64,000 nucleotides of DNA, taken from an uncultured Prochlorococcus sp. GTDB taxonomy: Bacteria; Cyanobacteriota; Cyanobacteriia; PCC-6307; Cyanobiaceae. Positions 56,253-58,526 of this stretch are shown here, piece after piece. The stretch spans positions 124,001-188,000 of the forward strand of contig CABYGI010000001.1 in assembly GCA_902518475.1 (NCBI GenBank). Direction: 5' to 3'. A program made the position numbers and the translations under genes. The notes below the pieces were generated by a model that saw only the letters and a list, made by a program, of their open reading frames with translations, ran no database searches and had not been told where the DNA came from. Every line of letters starts with the position of its first letter. The stretch's first letter is position 1.

Positions 56253-56324
56253 AAAGATTAGATTTAATCTAAAATTAATCTATAAAACTTTAATAACTAA
56301 CTATTTTTTAAATTTTTATTGTAT

Positions 56325-56338
56325 AGTACATATATACT
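56325..56338 (+). promoter_or_regulatory. LexA-type SOS box upstream of umuD
   Basis: AGTACATATATACT fits the published cyanobacterial LexA consensus RGTACNNNDGTWCB at 13 of 14 positions (A for G at position 10). It sits in an 18-base inverted repeat, ATAGTA-N6-TACTAT (56323-56340), 12 to 29 bases before the umuD TTG start. The site position and the adjoining error-prone polymerase genes support LexA control. Confidence 0.7.
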
Positions 56339-56351
56339 ATTAATTTAAGTC

Positions 56352-56768
56352 TTGGATTCCTTCGATTCAGCTACGAAAAGGTTCAGAATTCCCTTATTAA
56401 ATGATTCGGTATCTGCAGGATTTCCTTCTCCCGCAGACGACTATACAGAAGAAAATATTGATTTAAATGAACATTTAATATCTAATCCATTTAGCACTTT
56501 TTTTCTTAGAGTTAAAGGTGACTCAATGATAAATGCAGGAATTAAAGATAAAGATTTAATAATAGTAGACAAGAGTTTAATAGCAAAGCCAGGGAATATT
56601 ATCATTGCGATGATAGACGGGGAATTTACAATAAAAAGATTATCTATAAAAAATGATGAATTATATTTAAAAGCAGAAAATCATAATTATCCTGATTTTA
56701 GATTTAAAAACCATATTGATGTACAGATATGGGGAGTTGTTATTTATTCAATACATAGCTATTTATGA
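56352..56768 (+). CDS. umuD: UmuD-like self-processing protein (S24 peptidase)
   Basis: A 138-residue partner of DNA polymerase V. It has no helix-turn-helix, so it is UmuD, not LexA. The cleavage site is A22-G23 (SVSAGFPSPA), and the catalytic dyad is Ser58 (VKGDSMINAG) and Lys95 (GEFTIKRL), matching the spacing in E. coli UmuD. The start is TTG at 56352. It overlaps umuC by 4 bases and has a LexA-type box directly upstream. Confidence 0.93.
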   Translation: MDSFDSATKRFRIPLLNDSVSAGFPSPADDYTEENIDLNEHLISNPFSTFFLRVKGDSMINAGIKDKDLIIVDKSLIAKPGNIIIAMIDGEFTIKRLSIKNDELYLKAENHNYPDFRFKNHIDVQIWGVVIYSIHSYL

Positions 56769-58051
56769 GAATTTCAAGTATTAATGCTATAGCTCTAATA
56801 GATGCTAATAATTTTTATGCGTCATGTGAACAAAATATTAATCCTCATTTGAGAAATAAACCAGTAGTAATTTTATCTAATAATGACGGATGTATCATTG
56901 CTAGAAGTCCTGAAGCTCGAGCTTTAAAAATTAAAATGGGAACTCCTTATTTTAAGGTCAAAGAAAAATTAAATAAATTAGATGTAGCAGTTTTAAGCTC
57001 AAACTACTCGCTTTACGGCGATATGAGCAGAAGACTAATGAATTTACTAAAAAACTACTGCGAACAAATAGAGATTTATTCTATTGATGAAGCATTTGTT
57101 TCAATTTCTAGACCAAATGATAAAAATCTATATCCTTGGGCAAGAAGCATAAGATCATCAATATATCAGAATCTAGGGATTACCATAACAGTAGGAATAG
57201 GAGAAAATAAAGTAAGAGCAAAAATTGCTAATAAATTAGCTAAAAATATTGATTATTCAGCTGGAATATTTGATTTATCGAGGACCAGAAATGAGAATAA
57301 TTATTTAAAAAGAATTAGCGTAGATAAGATATGGGGAGTCGGGAAACAAACCTCTAATTGGTTGCAAAGTAAAGGTATTAAAAATGCAAAAGAATTAAGA
57401 GATATGGAAGAAAATGAAATCATTAAGAAATTAGGCATAGTAGGAAAAAGATTACAATTAGAACTGAAAGGTTATAAATGTCTGCCTATAGAAAAAAACA
57501 AGAAATCAAAAAAAGAAATTCAGGTAAGCAGGAGTTTCGGTACTCCTGTCACAAAATTAGAAGACTTAACTCAAGCACTGGCGACTCACGCAATAAAAGC
57601 TTCTGAAAAAATGAGAAGTCAAAAATTGCAATCATCTGATATTAGAGTATTTGCCAGAACCAGTAAATATTCAAGTCAAAATTATCAAAGAAGCGTTCAT
57701 AGAAAACTTTCAAATGCAACAGACGACACAAACAGCATTTTAAAAATAGTAGTTGAATTATCTAAAGAAATTTATAATCCTGAATATAAATTTTCAAAAG
57801 CTGGTGTTTTAATGCAGGATTTAACTAATAGCGAATATTTACAGCAATCAGTTATCAATTACAAATCTCAGAAAGATCTGAAAAAATCAGCAAATCTAAT
57901 GAGAACTATTGATTTATTAAATAAAAGATTTAATAACAATGCAATTACATGGGCTATTACAAAAAAGCCAAAAAGTTGGATGATGAATAAGAATTTCTTA
58001 AGTCGCTCATCTACAACTGATATAGACCAGATCCCAACTATAGTAAAATAA
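56765..58051 (+). CDS. umuC: DNA polymerase V catalytic subunit UmuC (Y family)
   Basis: A 428-residue translesion polymerase. Metal-binding ALIDANNFYASCEQ is near 11-24, YSIDEAFVS near 103-111 (catalytic Asp/Glu), and the thumb/little finger has IWGVGKQTSNWLQSKGI and SRSFGTPVTKLEDL. The C-terminal domain (about 380-428) carries WMMNKNFLSRSSTTDIDQIP, typical of the UmuC family. It is coupled to umuD and followed after 7 bases by the HExxH gene. Confidence 0.95.
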   Translation: MRISSINAIALIDANNFYASCEQNINPHLRNKPVVILSNNDGCIIARSPEARALKIKMGTPYFKVKEKLNKLDVAVLSSNYSLYGDMSRRLMNLLKNYCEQIEIYSIDEAFVSISRPNDKNLYPWARSIRSSIYQNLGITITVGIGENKVRAKIANKLAKNIDYSAGIFDLSRTRNENNYLKRISVDKIWGVGKQTSNWLQSKGIKNAKELRDMEENEIIKKLGIVGKRLQLELKGYKCLPIEKNKKSKKEIQVSRSFGTPVTKLEDLTQALATHAIKASEKMRSQKLQSSDIRVFARTSKYSSQNYQRSVHRKLSNATDDTNSILKIVVELSKEIYNPEYKFSKAGVLMQDLTNSEYLQQSVINYKSQKDLKKSANLMRTIDLLNKRFNNNAITWAITKKPKSWMMNKNFLSRSSTTDIDQIPTIVK

Positions 58052-58058
58052 AAAAAAT

Positions 58059-58526
58059 ATGGAATTTATTATATTTTTAAGCAAATTAGATAAAGAGATT
58101 CTTGCCTTATTAATAAAAGCAAACTACATAGTTGAAGAAAATAAAATTGAATGTCTCTTAAATAAAGAAATAAAAGGACTACATAATTTTGTAGAAAATA
58201 AAATAATAATATGCACTGAAAATGCAAAAAGGAAAACAAATTATAGAAATGAAAAGAAAAGACCAAACAAGGATAATTTCAAAACAGAATTGGCAATAAG
58301 AAAAGCATTAAGACATGAAGCTACTCATGCGATTCAAAAATGTAACAACAATAAGACAGTAGGTGATATAAAAAATTTAGAAGGTAAATTAAATCAAAGC
58401 AAGAGGAAATCATTAGAGTTCTCTACTTCCAATTTTTCTGGAACTTATGCAAAAGAAGTAGAAGCTTATATTCTTGAAGATAAGCCTAAAAAGGTAAAAA
58501 ATATGATTAAAAAATACTGCCTATAA
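58059..58526 (+). CDS. Unknown protein with HExxH zinc-peptidase motif, third gene of the umuDC cluster
   Basis: A 155-residue basic, soluble protein with no signal peptide or membrane segment beyond a mildly hydrophobic N-terminus. Residues 82-95 read KALRHEATHAIQKC: a complete HExxH (86-90) in an amphipathic helix, followed by EVEAYILED (133-141), which could supply the third ligand. Cys95 just after the motif and the layout recall the small Atp23/M76 peptidases, but this is a loose resemblance only. It starts 7 bases after umuC, so it is very likely part of the LexA-boxed transcript. Function unknown; a DNA-damage-linked peptidase is a hypothesis. Confidence 0.7.
   Translation: MEFIIFLSKLDKEILALLIKANYIVEENKIECLLNKEIKGLHNFVENKIIICTENAKRKTNYRNEKKRPNKDNFKTELAIRKALRHEATHAIQKCNNNKTVGDIKNLEGKLNQSKRKSLEFSTSNFSGTYAKEVEAYILEDKPKKVKNMIKKYCL

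Follow-up and report, generated by a model that had tools for sequence, protein, structure and literature searches.

An uncultured Prochlorococcus sp. carries, directly behind its SOS genes umuD and umuC, a small gene, here called M, whose product has the predicted active site of a gluzincin-type zinc metalloprotease. The operon is preceded by a LexA box, the active-site pattern is conserved throughout the relatives listed, and homologues of M lie beside the sliding-clamp gene in cyanophages. The reading that we rate highest, although we hold it tentatively and short of even confidence, is that M cuts proteins at replication forks, performing Spartan-like work as a member of another family. 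Zinc binding, protease activity and action at the fork are what we infer for M from its sequence and setting.

M in the umuDC operon

The analysed window comprises 64,000 nt (positions 124,001-188,000 of CABYGI010000001.1). Within it M (58059-58526, + strand) is an intact open reading frame of 155 codons with an ATG start, located 7 bases 3′ of the umuC stop (58051) and convergent with dnaG. The upstream genes, on the same strand, are umuD (56352-56768), encoding the S24 autoprotease subunit of Pol V (PF00717, 2.4e-33; NF007621, 6.5e-48), and umuC (56765-58051), encoding a Y-family polymerase with IMS (8.1e-40), IMS_C and DUF4113 domains above cut-off; the NCBIfam UmuC model NF002955 was matched at 1.9e-98, which is under its own cut-off. 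Inspection of this UmuC by eye revealed LQQSVI in the place where E. coli UmuC carries the clamp-binding motif QLNLF, so the clamp contact of the window's polymerase may differ.

The M product is basic (33 Lys and Arg versus 20 Asp and Glu, pI 9.6) and contains three histidines, His42, His86 and His90. The last two belong to the motif HEATH (His86-Glu87-x-x-His90; codons 58314-58328, + strand), predicted to supply two zinc ligands and the catalytic glutamate, while the segment EVEAY (residues 133-137; codons 58455-58469, + strand) contains Glu135, the putative third ligand. The original prediction had described the position, length, motifs, basic character and 7-base spacing correctly. An HExxH motif appeared in 82 of 20,000 shuffles of M's own residues; it is thus mildly unlikely by composition alone and needs support from relatives, and conservation settles the matter.

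Three kinds of scan yielded 258 loci, many of them near-copies, of which one fragment was dropped and 257 encode at least 115 aa. Among these listed matches the patterns HExxHxx[Q/H]xC and [E/D]xE[A/S]xxxE were each present in 257/257; orthologues without HExxH were specifically looked for, and none was found. In an alignment of the family thinned at 90% identity (74 rows), His86, Glu87, His90, Glu135, Glu140, Pro143 and the cysteines at 32, 52, 95 and 154 are invariant, H86 and H90 being the sole invariant histidines; position 133 is Glu in 64 rows and Asp in 10. The active-site pattern is thus invariant even though host and phage rows share only about 25-37% identity with the window's M. The median dN/dS was 0.14 for M (140 sampled pairs) versus 0.13 for umuC (97 pairs), and by this measure M is under strong purifying selection. 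The expectation that M is a real, conserved gene was therefore borne out.

In the available part of PMC2921402, TAGTACA-N2-TGTACTA is given as the LexA consensus for recA, umuC, umuD and lexA of Prochlorococcus, and umuC transcripts of PCC9511 are described as staying high for hours under UV; M is not mentioned in that part. The accessible portion of PMC3091678 places umuCD among the predicted LexA targets of several Prochlorococcus strains. A LexA box with one mismatch to the consensus, TAGTACATATATACTA (56324-56339, + strand), lies 5′ of umuD and is the sole site with at most two mismatches in the 64-kb window (0.17 expected). The best match 5′ of umuD had one mismatch in 81, two in 12 and three in 2 of the 95 loci with enough upstream sequence for scoring. 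The gap between umuC and M is 6-15 nt in 80/80 close loci. Given this box and this spacing, M of the close loci is likely, as far as sequence can tell, to be co-expressed with umuDC under SOS. The earlier claim that M is almost surely co-expressed is too strong for the whole family, since the gap widens to 34-355 nt in 17 divergent genomes and some genomes carry M away from umuC, with no LexA box found. No convincing box was found directly 5′ of M in 30 of the 31 divergent or stand-alone copies scored; the other, locus L139, has a candidate with three mismatches (P about 0.005), and one further copy of the 31 shows a four-mismatch candidate (P about 0.05).

M was present in 25/60 nearby genomes searched with a protein query and in 155/400 family genomes searched with a 23-row profile (E ≤ 0.001), a few of the latter matches being distant paralogues. 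Among divergent genomes, 20 were picked by hand, and 17 of them keep the order umuD-umuC-M-dnaG; in the other three, and in several further genomes viewed, M lies away from umuC, and the stand-alone copies viewed share no neighbourhood. At one such locus (L166, 3059-3912) a gene resembling that of ribosomal protein L20 precedes M, with 45 bp between them. Together with L135, which is on the same branch of the tree, it represents a move of M from umuDC to a probably constitutive place. Scans of plasmids gave no match, and PADLOC no convincing one.

Phage homologues and origin of the family

A tblastn search matched M with four phage records representing three phages, DSL-LC02, S-SRM01 and SynMITS9220M01. 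In the first two the M homologue begins on the final base of the sliding-clamp gene, and in the third a single gene separates them; a clamp-loader gene follows next, or a few genes on, in all three. Viral contigs scanned with the single M protein and with alignment A1 gave no relative, but a phage-based alignment did; together, the scans of viral contigs gave at least 178 loci, one scan being represented by the best 80 of 313. Among the matches listed, 172 contigs had at least 200 bp upstream of the M homologue: a T4-type clamp gene lies within 60 bp on its 5′ side in 158, further upstream in 12, and none is visible in 2. When near-copies were thinned, the clamp was within 60 bp in 58 of the 65-66 listed representatives, further up in seven and not seen in one. 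The gp44 clamp-loader gene was present within 1.5 kb 3′ of the homologue in 137 of the 151 listed contigs with enough sequence.

Related clamps occur in 938 phage records, only four of which (three phages) have a full-length M match near the clamp, so M is a rare clamp neighbour among sequenced isolates. Other cyanophages carry a 2OG oxygenase-like gene or an S-adenosylmethionine decarboxylase gene behind the clamp, so this position may be an accessory slot. Distant, signal-bearing versions of M were found in the ACG-2014f phages and S-CBP42, with no annotated clamp in their neighbourhoods.

Several phage annotations at these loci deserve comment. The M homologue of DSL-LC02 (WJZ48381.1; L173, 5001-5411) is annotated as a serine hydroxymethyltransferase, a name that its sequence does not support. 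SynMITS9220M01_128 (L175, 4389-4988) is annotated as DenV, and its sole Pfam match is to 2OG-Fe(II) oxygenases (1.9e-4, below cut-off); judging from this sequence, the DenV name looks wrong. A "putative cytoplasmic protein" of DSL-LC02 (L173, 6355-7491), whose gene lies between those of the clamp loader, has a match to DruA (PF14236, 3.1e-11); this name, which belongs to a defence system, here occurs within a phage replication operon.

In the phylogenetic tree, 30 Prochlorococcus-type rows, both umuDC-linked and relocated, form one branch (support 97/89). The phage rows are placed elsewhere, mixed with other picocyanobacterial copies, and the non-Prochlorococcus chromosomal copies fall among them. 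M also aligns with secreted-looking cyanobacterial proteins of the pattern HExxHxxQxC (hhalign 99.4%, E 3.5e-21, 120 columns) and, by this sequence comparison, is an offshoot of that mostly secreted-looking HExxH family. No Pfam family was found for the HExxHxxQxC proteins. The present analysis also names, in the M group, a set of proteins for which the Pfam and NCBIfam libraries scanned contain no entry that scores above cut-off. One genome (L272) has five matches to the wider HExxHxxQxC family altogether, including two tandem, membrane-anchored-looking members (421-1023 and 1099-1764).

The cysteines of the family come and go in pairs. Among 28 distant members, the first two are present together in 15 and both absent in 13, the last two are present together in 27 and both absent in one, and neither pair is ever represented by a single residue. 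This pattern predicts two disulfides, 32-52 and 95-154. That cysteine pairs should be kept inside the cell is odd, and, as far as the sequences suggest, they may serve redox control. The conserved YC[F/L] at the C terminus was weighed as a clamp-binding element, an idea given up because the cysteine of YC[F/L] seems to be paired with Cys95.

Predicted fold and possible functions

The AlphaFold2 model of M (pLDDT 91.6, pTM 0.88) places HExxH within a long helix (71-95) and Glu135 within helix 130-139. The HExxH...E pattern of the gluzincin clan is thus present in M, in the right helices of the model, and invariant. His90 and Glu135 are 45 residues apart, a spacing that we take to be that of lethal factor. 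A phage homologue was modelled with a pLDDT of 96.3. Structural comparison with VIA-align ranked IrrE first for the M model (3dte, Z 7.3, 81 residues, 2.2 Å) and the lethal-factor protease second (Z 6.7); ArdC and minigluzincins ranked below these two. The phage model was matched best by the lethal-factor fold (Z 6.6), and PprI scored 5.6 with it. Most entries listed for both models are, to our reading, HExxH peptidases. Their predominance fits the zincin-type fold originally suggested, which we retain as predicted, at modest Z values (at most 7.3); scores below 8 are not proof and may reflect no more than a common arrangement. SprT and WLM structures are absent from these lists, an absence that excludes nothing. 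Foldseek searches of the PDB with the host and phage models gave no match below E 0.6, sequence searches of solved structures gave unrelated matches (E > 0.3) or none, and the best matches in the viral library were cyanophage proteins of unknown function.

E. coli UmuC works with the beta clamp. The umuDC and phage-clamp settings therefore have clamp-bound DNA synthesis in common, and it is this, with the precedent of Spartan, that places a fork protease first. According to this proposal, high-light Prochlorococcus would make M together with the SOS lesion-bypass polymerase UmuD-UmuC, and a set of T4-like cyanophages would encode it beside their sliding clamp. His86, His90 and probably Glu135 would bind zinc, and Glu87 would activate water. 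M would then cut proteins that block, or need to leave, a stalled fork, such as DNA-protein crosslinks or stalled replisome parts, after which clamp-bound synthesis could resume. The clamp-adjacent phage homologues likewise suggest an unrecognised protease at copying forks. We consider a fuller version of the proposal rather unlikely: a clamp-coupled prokaryotic fork protease, independent of Spartan, would have arisen from a secreted cyanobacterial gluzincin that lost its signal and was recruited to DNA replication in two arrangements, clamp-M-clamp loader in cyanophages and LexA box-umuD-umuC-M in Prochlorococcus, while keeping two cysteine pairs that may serve as a redox switch.

Two alternatives, both unlikely and to the same degree, rank next after the fork protease. 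M could be a signalling protease like IrrE/PprI or ImmA, which upon DNA damage cuts a single regulator (a host repressor, UmuD or, for the phages, a host factor) and so switches a response on or off. The available part of PMC10904395 describes PprI as cutting the repressor DdrO and binding ssDNA, IrrE/PprI scored highest among the structural matches of the host model, and the gluzincin-type HExxH...Glu is alike in M and M78. However, hhalign of the M family against cyanobacterial M78 domains reached 12.6%, across the HExxH stretch only, and on this ground kinship with IrrE by sequence was rejected. In addition, neither M nor any family member listed matches Pfam M78 (PF06114), M is missing the HTH and GAF parts that PprI has, and no candidate repressor adjoins M.

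M might equally be an accessory gene that has passed from phages to picocyanobacteria or the reverse, unrelated to the fork and serving as a general peptidase, in host takeover or in defence, with both of its positions being insertion slots. Such traffic would agree with the other genes found behind the clamp, with the grouping of non-Prochlorococcus chromosomal copies among phage rows and with the varied surroundings of the stand-alone copies. It is opposed by the span of the clamp link across divergent phage groups, as seen in the thinned contigs, and by the union of the umuDC-linked host group in one supported branch.

It is less likely still that M brings error-prone synthesis to an end by degrading or processing UmuC, UmuD or the clamp complex. 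The location of M behind umuC speaks for such mutasome turnover, as does the window's genus, in which all five genomes without M, in a sample of 68, also lack umuC. However, adjacent genes can vanish together through one deletion or a missing contig, so this co-loss is weak evidence; in one genus genome a fragment of M lies at a contig edge with no umuC seen, and nine further genomes of the genus that had no M match in the protein query stand outside the umuC count. In the 400-genome family sample, umuC is present in 146/155 M-bearing genomes and in 193/245 of those without M, so UmuC does not need M, and no umuC was seen beside M and the clamp in the annotated phage records viewed. UmuD′ is known to arise by self-cleavage of UmuD, a step that therefore does not require M either. 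Finally, it is very improbable that M is a zincin scaffold for binding only: protease activity is itself a sequence-based prediction, but HExxH and the downstream Glu are complete in all 257 loci listed.

Searches of the literature found nothing on PMM0936/0938/0939 and nothing linking the cyanophage sliding clamp with a metalloprotease; the publications that pair umuDC with a metalloprotease or metallopeptidase concern, as far as their listing shows, other subjects. Should a fork protease prove to be the right reading, lesion bypass in very abundant photosynthetic cells would have a dedicated protease, a version of which phages carry by the clamp; prokaryotes would possess a fork-linked protease other than SprT; and the clearing of protein roadblocks at bacterial forks would become testable on a protein of 136-155 residues.

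Comparison with known protease families

Peptidase M76 (PF09768), proposed earlier for comparison, yielded sub-threshold matches alone: 26 of the 74 family members matched weakly (best 0.0011), and M itself did not. WLM (PF08325) was matched by 1 of 23 members (4e-4) and is not among the families listed for the 74-row set; kinship with it is at best tentative. IrrE/PprI and ImmA (Peptidase_M78) have HExxH with a downstream Glu (H48, H52 and E78 are invariant in the M78 rows aligned), as in M, and IrrE/PprI also shares the DNA-damage setting. The genome of the window (83% complete) gave no SprT-like or M78 match, which leaves that niche open.

The matches to the lethal-factor-type fold (M34) and to minigluzincins span the whole M model (Z 6.7 and about 4, respectively), with modest Z, an rmsd near 4 Å and 10-17% identity. 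Unlike lethal factor, M is an intracellular bacterial protein, and a toxic role is without evidence. PHROG 16003 was matched by all members of the two sets scanned (23 and 14; best 8.1e-12 and 1.8e-15, respectively); in the library it is named without function, and neither clamp nor umuDC linkage is mentioned. The secreted-looking HExxHxxQxC proteins resemble M in motif order and in their ends, but begin, as judged by eye, with a signal or membrane-like stretch at the N terminus, which M and the phage group lack.

SprT/Spartan proteins (PF10263) have HExxH in common with M (74/74 rows), but M lacks their third histidine ligand (H99, invariant in the 10 SprT-like rows aligned). M does not match PF10263, 13 of the 74 family members do so weakly and below cut-off (best 0.0017), and hhalign of the M family against the SprT-like set reached 13.1%. 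By sequence M is therefore not a SprT/Spartan protein, and the kinship that the original prediction had entertained is not supported. M is also a single small domain, in which neither a PIP box or other clamp-binding motif, read by eye, nor a DNA-binding domain was identified. According to the available text of PMC9240642, SPRTN, a PCNA-binding metalloprotease, removes proteins crosslinked at forks and promotes bypass. The likeness that we propose, by analogy, is one of task: M, like Spartan, may work at forks in concert with lesion bypass and a sliding clamp.
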